From contig JAIZWL010000001.1 of the NCBI GenBank assembly GCA_021498125.1, forward strand, positions 1 to 64,000: 64,000 nucleotides of DNA, written 5' to 3'. The translations under genes and the position numbers were made by a program. This DNA is from Candidatus Thorarchaeota archaeon (GTDB taxonomy: Archaea; Asgardarchaeota; Thorarchaeia; Thorarchaeales; Thorarchaeaceae). The notes below the pieces were generated by a model. The model had not been told where the DNA came from. It made no database searches and saw only the letters and a program-made list of their open reading frames with translations. Positions 49,150 through 61,996 of this stretch are shown here, one piece after another; positions within the stretch are counted from its first letter, which is position 1, and each line of letters starts with the position of its first letter.

Positions 49150-49539
49150 GTGATACTATGGCACAATTGCCATTTGCAGACAATGTTGATGGTGTTTATA
49201 GTGGAAGGAATTGAGGATTTTACAGTGTCTATTGGTGAGACCGAGATCTTTCTCAGGATAATGCAGCTTGAGAATGGTCTCTCTGTCTTCATCTCTTCCT
49301 CCTCCCAACCCCGCCTTGGCCCAATTGCATTGGCATCCCCCCCTGCTCTTGGAGGATCAGAACCCAGTTCCAGTAGTCTATTTGGCATGGATCAAGAGGC
49401 TGCTCTGGTACGCACAATTGCTGAACGCATAGCTGTCTGGTCCAATCAATCTTGTCTTGTTGTCATATCCGTGAAGAATCTCACCCGGTCTCTGGTCATG
49501 GAGATACTTAGGTCCCTGAACTCGCATCTTTTGTCCTAA
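49150..49539 (+). CDS. Proteasome assembly chaperone 4-like protein
   Basis: About 110-129 residues. The order LENGLSVFISSSSQP, GPIALASPP, SLFGMDQEAALVRTIAERIA and CLVVISVKNL resembles the PAC4/PSMG4 family, chaperones of 20S proteasome assembly. Several starts (GTG 49150, ATG 49183, GTG 49201) are possible. No proteasome gene is adjacent. The family call rests on pattern resemblance alone and needs profile comparison. The end overlaps the opposite small zinc protein by 32 bases. Confidence 0.55.
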   Translation: MILWHNCHLQTMLMVFIVEGIEDFTVSIGETEIFLRIMQLENGLSVFISSSSQPRLGPIALASPPALGGSEPSSSSLFGMDQEAALVRTIAERIAVWSNQSCLVVISVKNLTRSLVMEILRSLNSHLLS

Positions 49540-49744
49540 GAACTTCAACAATCTCTTTGACCCAGCTGCCCGTTCCATCCAGTTCTATCACTCTGTCAAG
49601 ATACTCCTCCCATGAGATGTCTAAGGCGCGCTTCCATTTCTCATAGCTGGTCGCGAGGTTCTTTTTTGCTTCAAGATGGTAACGACAGAACCCATTATCT
49701 GCATCCTCTGAAATCCTGTTGCATATCGGGCATCTATTCATCAT
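49508..49744 (-). CDS. Small zinc-finger protein upstream unit of TopA
   Basis: A 78-residue protein starting MMNRCPICNRIS with CxxC at residues 5-8, then CRYHLEAKK near 20, giving a potential CCCH zinc site. The remainder is helical (YEKWKRALDISWEEYLDRVIEL). It follows the topoisomerase gene by 9 bases on the same strand. Similar tiny proteins with KW-S-WEEYL motifs occur in other archaea, but I know no function. Confidence 0.65.
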   Translation of the reverse strand: MMNRCPICNRISEDADNGFCRYHLEAKKNLATSYEKWKRALDISWEEYLDRVIELDGTGSWVKEIVEVLRTKDASSGT

Positions 49745-49753
49745 GGATCTCTC

Positions 49754-51859
49754 CTATTTCTTCCGCTTAGTCCTCCTCTCCTGTAAGGCCGCGATATCCT
49801 TCTGCCGGCCGGGGCACTCGGCCCAATTAATGCACGTTTCCCATGTTCTTCGACCGGAGACTATCTTGATTATCTGATACCCGCAAAACTCGCATTTTTT
49901 ATCAAGAGGTACTATGGTCCCTCTCTGGGGTAAGGGGAATGTCTGGTCACAACCACCCTCCTTGTATCTTGAGCATCCAAGAAATCGTTTTCCTGTCTTC
50001 GGAGATCTAACAATTACAAGGGTTCCTTCACCACACTTGGGGCATGGTCCTATCTCCTGTTGCTCCCTCCAGTATCGTTGTAAGCCCTCTACCAGTTCTT
50101 GCCCAATTATTTTCTCTTGATTGCGAAAGTTATCAAGGATATCTAGCAGCTCCATCTTGGCAGCGTCTAATACTTCTGTCCGAGATCGTTTTCCTTCACG
50201 AATCTGTTCCATCTCTTGTTCAAGGTGTTTAGTAAAATCCACCGAGAGTATTTTTGGGATGTGATTTTCAAGGGTCTCAAAGACCGCATACCCTAGTGTG
50301 GAGATCTCAAATCGATCATTGAGCGTATAGCCACGTGACTTGAGAGAATCGACAATTCCTGCCCGTGTTGCTTTTGTTCCTAGGTTCTCACGTTCCATTT
50401 GTTTTAGAAGACTGGACGGGTTGAATCTGGCCGGAGGCGCCTCGTATTTCTCATCCGTTCGAATCGATTCTATCTTGACCAAATCGCCCTCTTCTATCTG
50501 AGGCAATTCTTGTTCTTCAAACCTTGTATATTTTCCATAGAGAAGGATCCATCCTGGTTCTAGTATTCGCTTTCCTCTCAGATAGAATGTATGTGTTTCA
50601 TACTCGAGATCTGCTCTTGTGCTCTCTCTCTTTGAACCTTGACCAAATAAGGCAAGAAATCTGCAGACAATTAAATCATACACTTTTTTCTCACTTGGAG
50701 TAAGGCGTCTGTCAGGTCTCTTTCCAGTGGGATGGATTGCAGGATGGGCCGGATCATCCTTCTTCCCCTGCATAGGGGTTTTGCGTCCTCCCCTGAGAAC
50801 TATGTCTACAAGCTTAGAGTATGTCTTTTGTGCCCTAAGATCCGAGAGAATTTTCCCGGTGTCAATATTGGGTGGTATTTTCTGGCTTGATGTACGAGGG
50901 TATGATATCAACGCATCAAGATAGAGTCGTTGCGCCAGTGCCAGTGTTCTGCTCGGCTTGAATCCAAAGTGTCTGTATGCTTCACTCTGAAGCCCACTAA
51001 GATTGAATGGTATTGGTGGTGCTACAGAGATAATTGTGCTTTTGATCTTGCTGACAGTAAGCATCTGGTTCGTGAGGTCTTGAACGATCTTTTTGGCCTC
51101 TTGATATATGTCGATGCGCCGGCGTGAATATTCGAGTTGCACCTTACTATCTTTGAACGTACCAATGGCATCAATCGTCCAGTAGGGTACTGGGACAAAT
51201 GTGTTGATCTCTCTCTCTCGTTCTGCAACAAATGCGAGTACTGGTCCCTGAACTCGCCCAGTTGACACGATCTTAAACCATCCACTAGCACGTTTAATTG
51301 CTAATGTGAGTGCCCGTGTGAGGTTGATCCCATATAGCCAATCGACCAAGTGTCGAGTGCACCCCGACTCGATCATTGGGAAATCGAGACTGTCCGACAT
51401 ATCCCTGTACGCCTGCTCAATCTCTTCTCTTGTCAATGTTGAGAATCTCATGCGGCTGGCCCTGTTGGGGTCGCTCTTGCATGCATATTTTAGAGTCAAG
51501 TATCCAATTAGACTGCCTTCAATGTCATAGTCTGTTGCAATCACAAATTTGTCTATTTCTCGAGAGAGCCGTTTGATGAGATTGATTATGGTCTTTGTCG
51601 CACCTGCCTTTTTATCAACTTCATATTTTGGAACCCATTGCGTTTTCAATCTTGGATACGTCCATCCCTTCTCGATCTGTTTTAACTCGAAGAGGTGACC
51701 TAGCGCATAGACAACTAATATGGAATCACCGCCCCTCTTACACTCAAAGTATGAGGCCTTTCTCTTCTTGATTGTCTGAGGTGAATGCTTCTCGTCAAGG
51801 GCGTACGCGATTCTCTCCGCAGCCATAGGTTTCTCAGAGATTACCATGATTCGTGCCAA
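49754..51859 (-). CDS. topA: DNA topoisomerase I (type IA)
   Basis: Relaxes negative supercoils by passing one strand, 701 residues. The Toprim region IVISEKPMAAERIA...ATDYDIEGSLIG begins the protein; the catalytic Tyr lies in ISYPRTSSQK near residue 317. Two C-terminal zinc ribbons, CPKCGEGTL...CSRY and CEFCGYQI...CINWAECPG, follow near 605-690. It lacks a reverse gyrase helicase, fitting a non-hyperthermophile. The small zinc protein follows in the same unit. Confidence 0.95.
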   Translation of the reverse strand: MARIMVISEKPMAAERIAYALDEKHSPQTIKKRKASYFECKRGGDSILVVYALGHLFELKQIEKGWTYPRLKTQWVPKYEVDKKAGATKTIINLIKRLSREIDKFVIATDYDIEGSLIGYLTLKYACKSDPNRASRMRFSTLTREEIEQAYRDMSDSLDFPMIESGCTRHLVDWLYGINLTRALTLAIKRASGWFKIVSTGRVQGPVLAFVAEREREINTFVPVPYWTIDAIGTFKDSKVQLEYSRRRIDIYQEAKKIVQDLTNQMLTVSKIKSTIISVAPPIPFNLSGLQSEAYRHFGFKPSRTLALAQRLYLDALISYPRTSSQKIPPNIDTGKILSDLRAQKTYSKLVDIVLRGGRKTPMQGKKDDPAHPAIHPTGKRPDRRLTPSEKKVYDLIVCRFLALFGQGSKRESTRADLEYETHTFYLRGKRILEPGWILLYGKYTRFEEQELPQIEEGDLVKIESIRTDEKYEAPPARFNPSSLLKQMERENLGTKATRAGIVDSLKSRGYTLNDRFEISTLGYAVFETLENHIPKILSVDFTKHLEQEMEQIREGKRSRTEVLDAAKMELLDILDNFRNQEKIIGQELVEGLQRYWREQQEIGPCPKCGEGTLVIVRSPKTGKRFLGCSRYKEGGCDQTFPLPQRGTIVPLDKKCEFCGYQIIKIVSGRRTWETCINWAECPGRQKDIAALQERRTKRKK

Positions 51860-54235: not shown

Positions 54236-54267
54236 TCTACAGACTGCTGCGGGTGATTCGAGTCTGT

Positions 54268-57051
54268 ATGGAGAGCGCACTAGGTATGACCAAGCTCAAA
54301 CGATTCAAACGATCCTCTGAACGCTTCCTCAAACAGGTCTTTCACAAGCCAAAGGCGAAGATCTCCCGAGGATCCGTAATGATTGTGGTCACTATGACTA
54401 TAGTCTTCTTTTCCTCGCTCGCCTTACGATTGCTTCCTATGATCAATGCCCAGCCAATCGTACGTGCGTTCGACCCATGGTTCCAACTCAAAGTGACCCG
54501 TTATATTACCGAAAATGGCTATGGTGCCTTCTTCTCATGGTATGATGACACATCTTGGGTTCCATTTGGGCATGATATAACAACAGCCGCATATGTTGGT
54601 GTACCTTTCACAAGTGCATTTCTCTACTTTGCAGCTAATGCATTGGGCCTCGGAGTCGATGTCACCTTTGTGTCAATTGTGATGCCCGCTCTACTCGGTG
54701 CAATCACCACAATTGTCGCCTTCTTCCTTGGTCGTGAACTCTACAACAACACTGTCGGAATGCTCAGTGCTCTCTTTATGGGATATATGCCTGCATTCCT
54801 CCAGAGAACTGTTGTGGGTTTCTTTGATAATGAATGTGTGGGCGTTCTTGCCATCGTCCTAGGTCTGTTCTTCTTTGTACGGGCCCTAAAACGTGACTCT
54901 TTGGCTTCCGCTGTGGGTGCAGGAGTATCCGTCGGCTATCTTCTTGCCTCTTGGGGTGCATCAGACTTTCTGATTGATCTCTTTGCAATGTATGCATTTC
55001 TTATGCTGATTGCTGGGAAATACAGTCGTCGGTTGTTATCGACCTATACGCTCACTATGACTATAGGATTCTTTATTGGTTGTCTGGTGCCACGTAACAG
55101 TTTTGATAAACTCACAACTTTTTCCTTCTTGGTGCCAATTGGCGTAGGTGTTCTTCTGGCGGGTTTTGAGATCTGGACTCGGATTGGTGGTTATCGTGAG
55201 ACCACTGCTGCTGCTCTCTCACCACATATGAAGCCTCTTCTTCTCTCTCTTATTATGCCCGCTGTGGCTGTTTCAGGTTATTTCATTTACGCAAATAATT
55301 CAGATTTAACAATTCGAACGGCTTCTTCGAATCCGTTCCTCACTCTTGGTGGGAAGTTCCTTACAGTCATAAACCCATTTTATAGACTGGACCAGCGAAT
55401 CTTTGCTTCTGTTGCAGAGCATCTTCCTAGCCCATGGTCTACATTCTATAATACTCTACTAGTTCTCATCTTCTTCTTCCCCTTGGGCATGTATTTCTTG
55501 TTCAAGCGTGGACACGATGAGGATTGGCTGATTCTTCTTTATGGGCTCACTTCAGTCTACTTTACGGGTAGCATGATTCGGCTTGGGCTTATTCTTGCTC
55601 CTGGAGTGGCGGTACTGGCCGCTGTGGCTGTAAATAATATTCTCTCGCCGTTTGCGAAGATCGTAACACAGTCATCGGTCTTTGAACGGCGTCGGTTCCG
55701 TGTCAGTTCATCTCTCACATCAGAACAGGCTCTCATCACCTATGGTTTCATTGCGATTGTCCTCTCGATGGCCGTACTTGGTGGAGTGAACTATACATCT
55801 ACACAGGTCGGGCGTCCTGAATTTGCATCGGGCAAGCTTTCTGATGGTGCAAAGTACACGGACTGGCAGACTGCTATGAACTTCGTACGAAATGTTCTCC
55901 CACCATCCGCTACAATAGCTAGCTGGTGGGACTATGGATATTGGATAAATAGTGCAGGGGATGGACGTACTATTGTTGATAACTCCACGCATAATCGAAC
56001 ACAGATTGCGCTGATGGGGTACGCGATGATGGCACTCAATCTGACAGAGTCATTGCGTGTGTTCCGGCAGTGGAATACCACCCATGTACTTGTCTACTGG
56101 GGCCACCGAATCTCCGGATTTGGTGGTGACGAGGGCAAGTGGCCATGGATGGTCCGGATCGCGGAGGACAGATTCGGTTCGAGTATGATAGATGATGCCA
56201 CCTATCTTGGTGACAATCCCAATACTCCTGATACTGTCGAAACCGAGTACACACAGGATGCTTTCTTCCAGTCCACAATCTACAAACTCATGCTTTATGG
56301 TGAGCCACGCTCAGAACAGGAGGCCAATAACATGGGCCTCTCTGATTCTCGTAAGGCTGTCGATTTCCAAGGATACTTCAAAGATCCTGATACACGTTGG
56401 GTTGAAAATATTCCAACCAATCTTCATAATGCCTTCAAGCTTGTGCATGTGAGTGCAGAGTACGGTCTTGTGAAGATATACGAAATCGACTATACCCTGC
56501 TTGATCAGGCCCTTAACAGGTCAGCAGCAGACTGGAAGATTGAAAAGGATTCCCTCAGCGATATGAGTCTTGATGGCTCCCTCTCCACCGCTGAGAAGGG
56601 CTATAGCAGCTATGATGTCATCTTTGGAGGTGACTACAAAGCAACTGTCTATACGCGCTCTAATGGTACCCATATGTACTACGGCATCAAGATGGATTCC
56701 TTTGATAATCTCAGGGACTCTTTAGGCATCCAGATTGCTCCACTTAGTGGCACAACCTATTCAGACATCCGAGCTGTCAATTATGACGGTCATGATGCCT
56801 ATGATGGGCATGTAAGCTTTGATGGGTCATGGAATCTTGATTCCACGGGAGCAACCGCATCGGAATTTGCTTATGGTAAGGGTGTGGTTGAGTTTCTTGT
56901 CCCGCTGAATGCTACGGACACACAGGATGTTATGATGGAAGAGGGAATGAATTATCGTATTCGGCTGTTCTTCTGGAATAACATTAACATTGGCGAACCC
57001 ACATATGCATCCGACTGGAATACTTTCTGGGTTCCAATCGAGTTATACTAG
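54268..57051 (+). CDS. aglB: Oligosaccharyltransferase catalytic subunit STT3/AglB
   Basis: Transfers lipid-linked glycan to Asn of N-X-S/T in secreted proteins. It has 927 residues from ATG 54268; GTG 54253 and a later ATG are alternatives. A first luminal loop bears the catalytic AFDPWFQLK segment near residue 70, then about eleven to thirteen membrane helices. The peptide-binding WWDYG is near residue 552, followed by a DNSTHN region and a C-terminal globular domain. The OSTC-like gene nearby suggests a multi-subunit complex. Confidence 0.94.
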   Translation: MESALGMTKLKRFKRSSERFLKQVFHKPKAKISRGSVMIVVTMTIVFFSSLALRLLPMINAQPIVRAFDPWFQLKVTRYITENGYGAFFSWYDDTSWVPFGHDITTAAYVGVPFTSAFLYFAANALGLGVDVTFVSIVMPALLGAITTIVAFFLGRELYNNTVGMLSALFMGYMPAFLQRTVVGFFDNECVGVLAIVLGLFFFVRALKRDSLASAVGAGVSVGYLLASWGASDFLIDLFAMYAFLMLIAGKYSRRLLSTYTLTMTIGFFIGCLVPRNSFDKLTTFSFLVPIGVGVLLAGFEIWTRIGGYRETTAAALSPHMKPLLLSLIMPAVAVSGYFIYANNSDLTIRTASSNPFLTLGGKFLTVINPFYRLDQRIFASVAEHLPSPWSTFYNTLLVLIFFFPLGMYFLFKRGHDEDWLILLYGLTSVYFTGSMIRLGLILAPGVAVLAAVAVNNILSPFAKIVTQSSVFERRRFRVSSSLTSEQALITYGFIAIVLSMAVLGGVNYTSTQVGRPEFASGKLSDGAKYTDWQTAMNFVRNVLPPSATIASWWDYGYWINSAGDGRTIVDNSTHNRTQIALMGYAMMALNLTESLRVFRQWNTTHVLVYWGHRISGFGGDEGKWPWMVRIAEDRFGSSMIDDATYLGDNPNTPDTVETEYTQDAFFQSTIYKLMLYGEPRSEQEANNMGLSDSRKAVDFQGYFKDPDTRWVENIPTNLHNAFKLVHVSAEYGLVKIYEIDYTLLDQALNRSAADWKIEKDSLSDMSLDGSLSTAEKGYSSYDVIFGGDYKATVYTRSNGTHMYYGIKMDSFDNLRDSLGIQIAPLSGTTYSDIRAVNYDGHDAYDGHVSFDGSWNLDSTGATASEFAYGKGVVEFLVPLNATDTQDVMMEEGMNYRIRLFFWNNINIGEPTYASDWNTFWVPIELY

Positions 57052-57220: not shown

Positions 57221-57397
57221 TCAATCATGTTGATGTTGTCTTGCCTTTCTCTTTGCCTCGCGTCTATACGCACCATACTTGTCTTGAGGGCTGAATTTTG
57301 CTGGAAGTGGACTATATACTTCTCCACCACAATACGGGCAACGTTTTTCATCAAGTGTGTATTCTTTACAGTGTGCGCATTTCAAGAGCAAGGTCAT
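57221..57397 (-). CDS. nop10: Nop10, H/ACA ribonucleoprotein subunit
   Basis: A 58-residue protein. The start is ATG 57397 and the TGA is at 57221. LKCAHCKEYTL and CPYCGGEVYSP make the four-cysteine zinc site, followed by PAKFSPQDKYGAYRREAKRKA, the conserved Nop10 tail that binds Cbf5. It guides pseudouridylation. It lies 10 bases after aIF2alpha, as in other archaea. Confidence 0.93.
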   Translation of the reverse strand: MTLLLKCAHCKEYTLDEKRCPYCGGEVYSPLPAKFSPQDKYGAYRREAKRKARQHQHD

Positions 57398-57406
57398 CTA
57401 TGTCGC

Positions 57407-58201
57407 CTACTTTCGTGAAAACTTGAATGTGCCCCCGTCGCTTTCAACGCTCTTGCTAACGGTTTCCAGAATTACTGAAAGTATATCTTCGGCCTCCTTG
57501 TAATCTGGACTGACAATTCTGAGTTTATATCTTGGAGCACCCAGTGTATAGATCTCTACAGTTGACTTCTCATACTTTTGGCCCAGTGTGAGCCCTTCAG
57601 TGAGTGCCTTCTTAATTACATTCACTCCCTCTGGACCGGGGACTGTAATGGTCAATTCACCATCAATCTCGACTGAGGGAATTTCAATCCGGGCTTTTGC
57701 CAGCTCGACGAGCTGTTCTTTGAGGTCTTTTGGAATATCCACATCTGCTAGGGCTTCCATGCCTCCATCAGCTGCTTTTTCCAGACCCCTATAGAGTTCG
57801 CCAAAGGTATCTTCTAGTGGCCACCCGACCTTTTCGTACGCCTCTTCTAAAGACATATTGTTGTCTTTGGCGATAAACTCGAGTAGTTTTTCTGCCTTCT
57901 GTGATCTTTTCCATTCGTTGTTCTTCTTTCTCTTTGCTTCTGTTGAGACTCTTCGCAACGAACAATCAATGTGTCGTTTTTGGGCATCTACCTGTAATAC
58001 CTTGGCAATGACTCTTGCACCCTCGTGAATATGATTCCTGATGTTCCTTACCCACGTGCTGCTTATCTCCGAGATGTGAATGAAGCCCTCTTTGTCCCCA
58101 TACTCTGGAAGGGTGACATATGCTCCATAAGGCGCCACCTTTGTTGCTACAGCCACGACGTATTCGTCTGGCTGAGGCCATTCTGCACGTTTCCGGACCA
58201 T
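57407..58201 (-). CDS. eif2a: Translation initiation factor aIF2 alpha subunit
   Basis: A 264-residue subunit of the ternary complex that binds initiator tRNA. An N-terminal S1 domain reads VVAVATKVAPYGAYVTLPEYGDKEGFIHISEIS with the eIF2alpha S51-equivalent region after WVRNI; a helical domain and a C-terminal alpha/beta domain follow. The gene lies between S27e and Nop10, the archaeal order. L44e, usually first in this unit, is elsewhere. Confidence 0.95.
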   Translation of the reverse strand: MVRKRAEWPQPDEYVVAVATKVAPYGAYVTLPEYGDKEGFIHISEISSTWVRNIRNHIHEGARVIAKVLQVDAQKRHIDCSLRRVSTEAKRKKNNEWKRSQKAEKLLEFIAKDNNMSLEEAYEKVGWPLEDTFGELYRGLEKAADGGMEALADVDIPKDLKEQLVELAKARIEIPSVEIDGELTITVPGPEGVNVIKKALTEGLTLGQKYEKSTVEIYTLGAPRYKLRIVSPDYKEAEDILSVILETVSKSVESDGGTFKFSRK

Positions 58202-58241
58202 CTTGGTTTATCTCCATCACTTAAGTCGTCGTCAGTTGCGA

Positions 58242-58451
58242 TCACAACAGCTCTTCGATTATTCGTGCTGTAGGTTCGAGCTGTGCCTTACCGCCTGCGG
58301 GTCGTGCTAGGACTTTCCCACACTTAAGGCATTTTACTACAGTCGATGCGTGGCCGAAGATGATCTGTTCATTCTCGCAGTCCAGACACTTCACCTTGAG
58401 AAATCGAGAGTTAGGCTGTTCTACTATTTCCTTTTTGGTCAACACTATCAC
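58242..58451 (-). CDS. rps27e: Ribosomal protein S27e
   Basis: A small-subunit zinc protein of about 64-69 residues. FLKVKCLDCENEQIIFGHAST and VKCLKCGKVLARPAGGKA give the CX2C...CX2C site. It heads the unit S27e-aIF2alpha-Nop10. The exact start among a few candidate codons is uncertain. Confidence 0.94.
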   Translation of the reverse strand: MIVLTKKEIVEQPNSRFLKVKCLDCENEQIIFGHASTVVKCLKCGKVLARPAGGKAQLEPTARIIEELL

Positions 58452-58486
58452 CGCTGTTATTATACTCGTCAGTCATGCCTCTACAA

Positions 58487-58518
58487 AGAGAAAGAGGCCC
58501 ACCGGTGGGTCTTTCTCT
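58487..58518. repeat. Perfect-centred inverted repeat upstream of S27e
   Basis: AGAGAAAGA (58487-58495) pairs with TCTTTCTCT (58510-58518), and the centre CCCACCGGTGGG is itself a palindrome, with two unpaired G's. It lies about 36 bases upstream of S27e on the divergent side. It could be an operator or a transcript hairpin in the leader. Confidence 0.6.
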
Positions 58519-58765
58519 CTCAGATTGGTGTTGTATTATAACTCTATCTCTACAGCTCTCTTAACTGAAGGTGAATATATTGCTGTATTCATTTTATTTC
58601 GAGTTTCCTGTATTGCAGACGGTATGCCCGTATATCTTATTCAATTCGAGTGATTTGTGCGATTCGTGTTGTAGATACGATCATTCTTTTTTTGCGCAAC
58701 ACCAAAATCATTATATTGCAACTCTGAGGCTGAGTCATTCGGTCACTTCCTGATTGTGTTCAAAT

Positions 58766-58902
58766 GGGCTCGTGGCTAAGCCAGGTATAGACATCTCGCC
58801 TTGTGCGAAGGTCACCTACAGCGACAGGCTCTTAACTTGTATGTCCGCTCACTTCGACGGACAGAGGTCTGGTCGCGGGTTCAAATCCCGCCGAGCCCGC
58901 CA
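58766..58902 (+). tRNA. tRNA-Lys(CTT) with two introns, CCA encoded
   Basis: Acceptor GGGCTCG/CGAGCCC, T arm GCGGG-TTCAAAT-CCCGC, anticodon stem ACAGG/CTTGT around CTCTTAA (anticodon CTT), discriminator G and CCA are present. A 31-nt insertion interrupts the D stem 3' strand near 24/25 (GCTA...TAG|...|C). About 29 nt, ATGTCCG...GAGGTC with a GTCCG/CGGAC hairpin, separates position 43 from the TGGTC variable loop. The second insertion starts with the same bases and lies at the same place as in tRNA-Lys(TTT). Confidence 0.87.
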
Positions 58903-59066: not shown

Positions 59067-59717
59067 CTAGATCTTCTTCTTACAGAAGAACCAGTCTGCG
59101 CAATCATAGCCCTCTTCAAGACGTTTCTTGGCCTCATCGACCGTGCCCGGAGGTGGTACGATCACATCATCGCCCGGTTGCCAATTGGCAGGGGTCGCCA
59201 CGCCATGCTTGTCTGAGGTCTGGAATGCATCAATGGCCCGAAGTATCTCCGCCATGTTCCGGCCGTTGCTGAGCGGATAGTAGATGAGTGCTCGAAGCTT
59301 GAATTCCGGATCGATGAAGAAGACCGCACGCACTGCCGCTGTGGAACTCTGTGCCGGATGTATCATGCCATACTTTTTGGCAACGTTCATGCTCAGATCT
59401 TCAATGATCGGGAATGGTATCTCTTTTCCAAGCTTCTCCTTGATCGCTCGTGTCCATGCAATGTGTGAATAAATGCTGTCGATACTGAGGCCTATCAATT
59501 TCACATTACGCTTTTTCAACTCGTCAAAAATATCTGCGAAGGCCATAAATTCGGTCGTGCATACAGGTGTGAAGTCTGCCGGATGGGAGAATAAAATCAC
59601 CCAGCTGCCCTTAGCCCACTCTGAAAATTTGATGTGACCATGTGTAGTGTTTGTTTCAAAATCAGGTACTTTTTCACCAATTAGAAGCATCCGCTTTTCC
59701 ATCTCTTGCGTTTCCAT
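59067..59717 (-). CDS. Peroxiredoxin (Prx6-like)
   Basis: Reduces peroxides through an N-terminal peroxidatic cysteine in [11 protein letters not shown] near residue 46. About 216 residues from ATG 59717, preceded by AAGGTGAG; a longer frame upstream is less likely. The C-terminal CADWFFC provides candidate resolving cysteines. [20 protein letters not shown] is typical of the archaeal Prx6 group. It is divergent from the Fur-family gene, suggesting peroxide-controlled expression. Confidence 0.92.
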
Positions 59718-59774
59718 ATTTCTCACCTTGTTTCTGATCTCCCTGTCGGATCTCTTTCTAGAGGGAGTTAACAT

Positions 59775-59788
59775 AATGAATAATCATT
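59775..59788. promoter_or_regulatory. Candidate Fur/PerR operator between peroxiredoxin and its regulator
   Basis: AATGA-ATAA-TCATT is an AT-rich inverted repeat in the divergent gap, upstream of the peroxiredoxin start and about 80 bases before Fur. PerR boxes have similar inverted AT-rich form. Confidence 0.45.
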
Positions 59789-59870
59789 CTTATTTAAGTA
59801 TTGTTATCTATTACTCTTCAATTGTAACTAAGAATAGTTTTATTTAGCCTTATGATTATGTGACACTGCC

Positions 59871-60296
59871 ATGATATCGTCAAGACATGAAATCGCCGAC
59901 CGCATCAGAAAGACTGGTAAACGCGCCACCCCCCAGAGAATTATCATCTATGAGGCCATGTGGAAGTCCCGCTCTCATCCCACCGTTGCTGATGTTCACT
60001 CCTATGCCATCCAATCCGATCCTTCTATCAGTCTTGCTACAGTCTATAAGACTCTCCATCTGTTCGAAGAGATTGGCCTCGCCTCTGAGTTTGTTGATGG
60101 CGATGGAACTACCCACTATGATCCCGAGACTCGCCCTCATATCAATCTCATATGCGAACGCTGTGGCAAAATCGAAGATTTTGAGGCCCCTCCTCTTTCT
60201 ACGCTGGCCTCTGATATTGAGTCTAAGACCGGTTTCAAAATAACCTCTCAGACTTTTGAGATCAGAGGCATTTGCCCCGACTGCCAACGTTCATGA
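59871..60296 (+). CDS. Fur-family regulator, probably PerR-like
   Basis: A 141-residue metal-dependent repressor. TGKRATPQRIIIYEAMWKSRSHPTVADVHSYA is the winged helix, and SLATVYKTLHLFEEIGLA the recognition helix. The metal site HYDPETRPHINLICERCGKIEDFE includes the H-H and CERC ligands, and a second CPDC ends the protein. Divergent placement with a peroxiredoxin supports a peroxide-sensing PerR role. Confidence 0.9.
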   Translation: MISSRHEIADRIRKTGKRATPQRIIIYEAMWKSRSHPTVADVHSYAIQSDPSISLATVYKTLHLFEEIGLASEFVDGDGTTHYDPETRPHINLICERCGKIEDFEAPPLSTLASDIESKTGFKITSQTFEIRGICPDCQRS

Positions 60297-60677: not shown

Positions 60678-60715
60678 CATAGGTGAAACGCTCGTCCCAC
60701 AATGGTGGTCTAAGA

Positions 60716-61708
60716 TTACGATTGGGATTTCTGAGATTTGCGGAAGATGGTAAGGAGACCGACGAGGGCGAAGAGAAGGATAGAGAATGCCACAATCATT
60801 GGTAGAATGATTGATGCCGAGCCCGCCTGCTATGTTGAAGTTTCTGTAACAGTGAGTGATAAGGTTTCAGTGAGGTTTGTGGTAGTAGTTGAGCGGAAAA
60901 GATCACGCAAGACGAATGAATGCCAACCTTTCTTAAGTTCATTATCAAGATGGAGCACTACTTCTTTTGAGAAATTGTGGTTGAAGTAGACATAGAGGTC
61001 ACGATTCACAAGATCGTAAACGCAAGAGAACGCAGTATAGACCGACCGGGCAGCATCCAGTACATCCCGCGCGTTAGCAATAGTGATGTTGGATCCTATC
61101 TGTTCCAACAGCACCTTTGCCTGATGATATCTCTGTACAGAGGAACTGCTCTGTCCGAGTTCAGGATAGGCGATATTTCCGTTTGTGATTAGTTGGTATG
61201 TTGCATTTTTCCGGATATATTGTATAGTTTTATCCGGCCCAGCGACGATCACGACGGACTCACCAAACCTATCAGCCACAAGGATTTGCCACTCCCACAC
61301 GTCCGCGATATTGTATTGCATGAACAGATCAATCGAATCGTTGACAGAGGCGCAAGTTCGGAGAACATACCTAAACAAATCCCGATTCAGATACGGTATA
61401 TCTGGATCTGGCGTCACGTTGGAGGGGGGAACCAACGTACTACCTATGAACACACCTTGATCATTCATTCCTGTACGGATGTCTTCAAAATGCTCAGAGT
61501 GCGTAAACGCAGCATAGCCGTGACCTTGGCTGTTCTTTGGATAAAAAAGGATGCTAAAGTTAGTGTGGCTCCAGTCTTCATTATTTGCAACAAGTGTTGT
61601 TTCCCCGTTTGAGGCCGAAAATATCGTGCAAGCAGCAGCATATGAACTGAAGCTGTTCAACACAATGATCAATAAGAGAGCACTAATTGCCATTCTCTGA
61701 AGCGACAC
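60716..61708 (-). CDS. Secreted Ntn-hydrolase-like protein; membrane anchor separated by in-frame TAG
   Basis: The main frame (61708-60830) encodes 292 residues. A signal peptide runs to YAAA-C27, and cleavage there exposes the Cys nucleophile of a linear amide C-N hydrolase (choloylglycine/acyl-coenzyme A:6-APA type): CTIFSA, NNEDW, GMNDQGVFIG. A Thr-rich stalk ends in TVTETST, then TAG (60830-60832). The same frame continues for 37 codons with ASIILPMIVAFSILLFALVG and RKSQ before TAA at 60716. The added tail looks like a normal C-terminal anchor. The substrate is unknown. Confidence 0.75.
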
Positions 61709-61828
61709 ACTGTTCGTGTAGTGCGAGTACTGATATAATCTGTATGACTCTCACATTGTATCCGTTTTAGGAACACAACCGTAACATATGTCTTAAGACG
61801 AATGCTGCGATTCATCTGCTAATGATGT

Positions 61829-61996
61829 GTGTTCAAAGAACATATCGCCATCAATGAGGCCCAGATGACTTGTGTCAGGGATTTCCCCCATGTTGATTTA
61901 TCTCTCACAGGGGATGCCGACAGGCTTCCGGATGATGAGCTAATCCCGAAGGATTATAAGGCGAAACAAGTCGGAGAGAGCGCCCCTAAGTGGTGA
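61829..61996 (+). CDS. Short frame directly before L44e
   Basis: A GTG-initiated frame of 55 codons, or ATG 61865 of 43 codons, ends six bases before L44e. HVDLSLTGDADRLPDDELIPKDYK is acidic and balanced in a protein-like way. I recognise no family, and it could be a leader region rather than a gene. The upstream base run is weak. Confidence 0.3.
   Translation: MFKEHIAINEAQMTCVRDFPHVDLSLTGDADRLPDDELIPKDYKAKQVGESAPKW

Follow-up and report, generated by a model that had tools for sequence, protein, structure and literature searches.

A gene for a secreted hydrolase in a Thorarchaeota (Asgard) genome ends at a TAG, and directly behind this stop codon the same reading frame encodes a membrane anchor. 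Is the anchor still made, or has the enzyme lost it? The gene lies in a 64,000-nt stretch of contig JAIZWL010000001.1 (the window), which belongs to a MAG of 3.11 Mb that is 98% complete. The first-pass annotation listed four possibilities, namely stop-codon readthrough, pyrrolysine, a recent nonsense mutation, and a sequencing error. The third is the best supported of the four: translation probably ends at the UAG of a recent, lineage-specific nonsense allele, which leaves an exported, unanchored enzyme.

The hydrolase and the frame beyond its stop codon

The ORF of 292 codons is located on the minus strand (60830-61708) and runs from a GTG at 61708 to the TAG at 60832-60830 (codon 293); an ATG at 61693-61691 is a possible alternative start. 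Residues 1-26 (61631-61708, minus strand) form a predicted signal peptide, as judged from a predicted helix at residues 3-18 and from the relatives. The signal peptide ends directly before Cys27, which is invariant in 24 relatives and preceded by a hydrophobic segment. Cys27 is the predicted N-terminal nucleophile and would be exposed once the signal peptide is removed; in secreted penicillin V acylases (PVAs) the signal peptide is cleaved next to the Cys. According to the alignment and the AlphaFold2 model, the catalytic Ntn domain covers residues 27 to about 270 (60899-61630, minus strand), and the alignment shows that the family-invariant residues C27, D45, N82, N176, N178, and R193 are present.

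The AlphaFold2 model (pLDDT 88.1) displays an Ntn fold that is finished by about residue 270 and is followed by a low-confidence linker. In Foldseek, the model matched structures of bile salt hydrolase (BSH), PVA, and isopenicillin N acyltransferase with E-values of about 1e-11, and together the model and the matches reveal the alpha-beta-beta-alpha arrangement characteristic of the CGH/PVA/AAT superfamily. A phmmer search of the PDB sequences with the single hydrolase protein returned nothing meaningful, while the family profile found BSH/PVA chains at an E-value of 5e-8. The hydrolase resembles the choloylglycine hydrolase/PVA family in its Ntn fold and Cys nucleophile (Foldseek E-value 7e-12), but most structural matches have only 12-16% identity, and the Asgard members differ by their C-terminal stalk and transmembrane anchor. 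As in the isopenicillin N acyltransferase/C45 group, the AAT profile PF03417 scores above its gathering cut-off (40.9 vs 23.2 bits), and the isopenicillin N acyltransferase structures 2x1c/2x1d had the lowest rmsd among the top Foldseek hits (3.5-4.1 Å). Unlike that group, the hydrolase has no propeptide, Cys27 following directly after the signal peptide, and its score with the C45 proenzyme model NF040521 (67.9 bits) is below the curated cut-off of 85. On the modeled structure, the gene is assigned to the Cys-nucleophile Ntn hydrolases with the BSH/PVA/isopenicillin N acyltransferase fold.

The catalytic domain is followed by a Thr-rich, disordered stalk (residues 271-292, STTTTNLTETLSLTVTETST; 60833-60898, minus strand) with pLDDT values of about 48-56. 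In the model, the TAG falls inside this linker, after the complete enzyme domain. As the domain is complete upstream of the TAG, the cell most likely exports a hydrolase whose stalk ends freely. The shortened enzyme is also predicted to be active, because the invariant residues are intact and the fold is complete.

Past the TAG, the frame continues for 37 sense codons (60829-60719) to a TAA at 60718-60716. These codons, QAGSASIILPMIVAFSILLFALVGLLTIFRKSQKSQS, encode a single strong transmembrane helix with a basic tail behind it, as the first-pass annotation had stated; the stretch QAGSASIILPMIVAFSILLFALVGLLTIFR exemplifies the extended frame past residue 293. When the read-through protein was modeled with AlphaFold2, a helix was predicted at residues 298-329, after the linker. 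When the 111-nt post-TAG piece was shuffled with its dinucleotides preserved, only 0.5% of the shuffles both remained open and had a 19-residue hydropathy of at least 2.0, and the observed value of 2.83 was reached by 0.005%. ORF and stop statistics were taken from a 464-kb sample (400 kb taken in stretches) and not from the whole genome. Within it, a helix of hydropathy at least 2.0 with a basic tail was found in 0.06% of 37,353 post-stop segments of at most 80 codons, and among 411 ORFs the hydrolase alone was a secreted ORF that lacks a C-terminal transmembrane segment and has a transmembrane helix with a basic tail behind it in the same frame. The codon usage of the window genes fits frame 0 of the post-TAG segment best of the six frames, and this frame is well preserved, with neither a second stop nor a frameshift. 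The post-TAG anchor frame is beyond chance. Such an intact frame would, however, also be expected under readthrough or a sequencing error.

Relatives and the sec61-beta/L44e locus

Matches to the hydrolase were found in 66 of the 295 genomes searched, the window's own genome included. They make up an uncharacterised, Asgard-wide family (loci L002-L030) that combines a signal peptide, a Cys1 Ntn hydrolase, and a C-terminal membrane anchor. Up to six matches occur in one genome. NF040521 recognizes 19 of 24 family members at an E-value of 1e-3 or better.

The nearest relative, from Candidatus Thorarchaeota isolate Zod_maxbin.0292 (JAFGAR010000165.1), is 52% identical over residues 1-327 and was the sole match in the scan of named genomes. 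It belongs to another genus of the same family and has a Thr/Ser stalk, a helix, and a basic tail of its own, with no stop through the stalk. The same continuity was seen more widely: among the loci read, all 28 complete relatives reach the C-terminal hydrophobic segment unbroken, the opposite of orthologues that end before the helix. Its hydropathy is at least 1.88 in 26 of them, and two borderline cases have values of 1.40 and 1.64. Four of the 28 are longer proteins with several transmembrane segments. A single stop at the stalk/anchor boundary was seen in none of the other matches from the 295 genomes, so the TAG is conserved in no relative and the allele is carried by one genome only. The unbroken anchor of the complete relatives indicates that the post-stop frame is the ancestral anchor and that the TAG is the exception. 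The earlier description of a secreted Ntn hydrolase with a Thr-rich stalk and an anchor past the TAG was right.

In the window the gene stands between sec61-beta and ribosomal L44e, in the orientation opposite to theirs, while in three congeners (G001, G002, and G003) sec61-beta adjoins L44e and the hydrolase is missing. The segment 60680-61930 would accordingly represent a lineage-specific insertion, or a loss elsewhere. No same-genus copy was found in the congeners, at the locus or elsewhere, two of these three genomes being incomplete (74% and 87%). From its gene order, the hydrolase appears to be a lineage-specific accessory gene of the sec61-beta/L44e locus, and its lack at the same locus in three congeners makes a dispensable accessory gene plausible.

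Reading of the TAG

The most probable course of events starts from an accessory gene encoding a signal peptide, a Cys1 enzyme, a Thr-rich stalk, and a C-terminal membrane anchor. A real, recent, and lineage-specific nonsense substitution would have hit a stalk codon at the stalk/anchor junction, and translation would stop at the UAG essentially completely. Once the signal peptide has directed export, Cys27 would form the new N-terminus, and the product would be released, its stalk free, rather than anchored; we infer that it is still exported and active. The 37 post-stop codons would then be a relic, no longer translated but so far undecayed. Recently interrupted archaeal genes (pseudogenes and nonsense alleles) similarly show a single in-frame stop and an intact downstream frame that are not shared by relatives. 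The difference here is that nothing but an accessory anchor is cut off by the stop, the enzyme domain being complete.

A consensus or assembly error, with the organism itself having a sense codon and making an ordinary anchored enzyme, is possible but unlikely. The source is a MAG, and the rest of the architecture is intact and typical of the family, which would fit such an error. On the other hand, 15 genes in the neighbouring 20 kb, compared with their congener orthologues, contain neither a premature stop nor a frameshift, and none of 62 ABC-domain matches from across the genome is interrupted by a stop, which indicates a low error background. The genome is also assembled into 14 contigs, including one of 1.55 Mb. 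The base at the TAG is therefore probably real.

Readthrough of the UAG, basal or programmed, would yield secreted and anchored enzyme side by side. We regard it as quite unlikely, and for its programmed form we found no positive support. In its favour, the intact anchor frame is hydrophobic and looks like coding sequence, and the stop is placed exactly at the linker, where both products would be expected to fold. The next codon is CAG, and in eukaryotic systems with eRF1 a UAG followed by CAR is leaky; the host here, however, is an archaeon with aRF1. CARYYA is a known leaky stop-codon motif, but the context UAG CAG GCG does not complete it. Furthermore, genes with programmed readthrough are recognized by a conserved stop together with a conserved extension, and here the extension is conserved while the stop is not. 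RNA folding downstream of the TAG was no stronger than in shuffled sequences (z 0.22), no tRNA with a CUA anticodon was among those resolved, and the 464-kb sample contained no second case of a secreted ORF, stop, and anchor. A 2021 review gives archaeal stop readthrough for selenocysteine and pyrrolysine only (PMC8211752). That released and anchored forms of one enzyme arise either by leaky aRF1 termination or through an orphan tRNA-Pyl remnant carrying a standard amino acid is, taken together, decidedly improbable.

Decoding of the UAG by a suppressor tRNA, for instance an orphan tRNA-Pyl that carries a canonical amino acid, is very improbable. A study reports tRNA-Pyl remnants in Thorarchaeia that lack pylSBCD (PMC9723677), and our tRNA inventory is incomplete, those for Gly, Asp, Asn, His, and Phe not having been resolved. 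Nevertheless, none of the about 30 tRNAs resolved with the Rfam tRNA model and intron-aware ARAGORN has a CUA anticodon. A genome-wide search for a CUA loop with a T-arm gave 23 hits vs 51 in the reversed control, and ARAGORN called a CUA tRNA for none of the 23. Moreover, TAG terminates 118 of the 411 sampled ORFs (about 29%), which efficient suppression would damage. For two TAG-ending genes of the window, 54253-57051 and 59067-59774, the congener orthologues stop at the same codon with TAA/TGA. This stop usage and these orthologue ends rule out a general reassignment of TAG, in agreement with the first-pass annotation.

Pyrrolysine is effectively excluded: the in-frame TAG recalls the UAG recoding known from another Asgard class, Sifarchaeia (PMC9723677), but PylS and PylC had no match in the 98%-complete genome, PylD had one weak partial match (19.6 bits vs the cut-off of 150), and the site is a residue of a disordered stalk and not a catalytic one as in the methylamine methyltransferases.

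The window held one other TAG that was considered and rejected as a second candidate, that of a 701-aa gene at 49754-51859. A small zinc-ribbon-like ORF (49509-49754) starts 12 nt past this TAG in frame; with an ATG of its own, it is apparently a separate gene. The orthologue of the 701-aa gene has a TGA at the same point in G001 and about a dozen codons further in G002.

Significance and gene order around the locus

The first-pass observation is accurate and its best explanation is an ordinary one; only peptides from beyond residue 293 would give it more than limited interest. With a single nonsense allele converting a surface hydrolase from anchored to released, the case would be a small example of a change in localisation by one substitution. 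Beyond this, the allele would be of consequence only if the cell continues to make the anchored form, archaeal readthrough other than for selenocysteine and pyrrolysine being absent from the review cited above (PMC8211752). Readthrough, if true, would be an archaeal counterpart of the C-terminal extensions made by readthrough in animals and viruses, outside selenocysteine and pyrrolysine. The expanded Asgard family of membrane-anchored hydrolases with the BSH/PVA fold will probably be of more lasting use than the nonsense allele.

Some minor features of the region were noted. A tRNA-Val (CAC) at 58766-58902 contains an intron and escaped ARAGORN at its default settings; introns as long as about 64 nt occur in several of this genome's tRNAs. 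The cluster of sec61-beta, L44e, S27e, IF2-alpha, Nop10, and OST is contiguous in the congeners and rearranged in the window (60680-61930, 57230-58560, and 59067-60296). The block from OST to S27e is inverted at 54.2-58.6 kb and is separated from sec61-beta by the tRNA-Val, a peroxiredoxin, and a Fur-like gene, the hydrolase being inserted before L44e. In congener G003, a 326-aa ORF (L044:52-1032), which by eye resembles a LAGLIDADG endonuclease, is located just upstream of sec61-beta, so the sequence flanking the locus differs from species to species.
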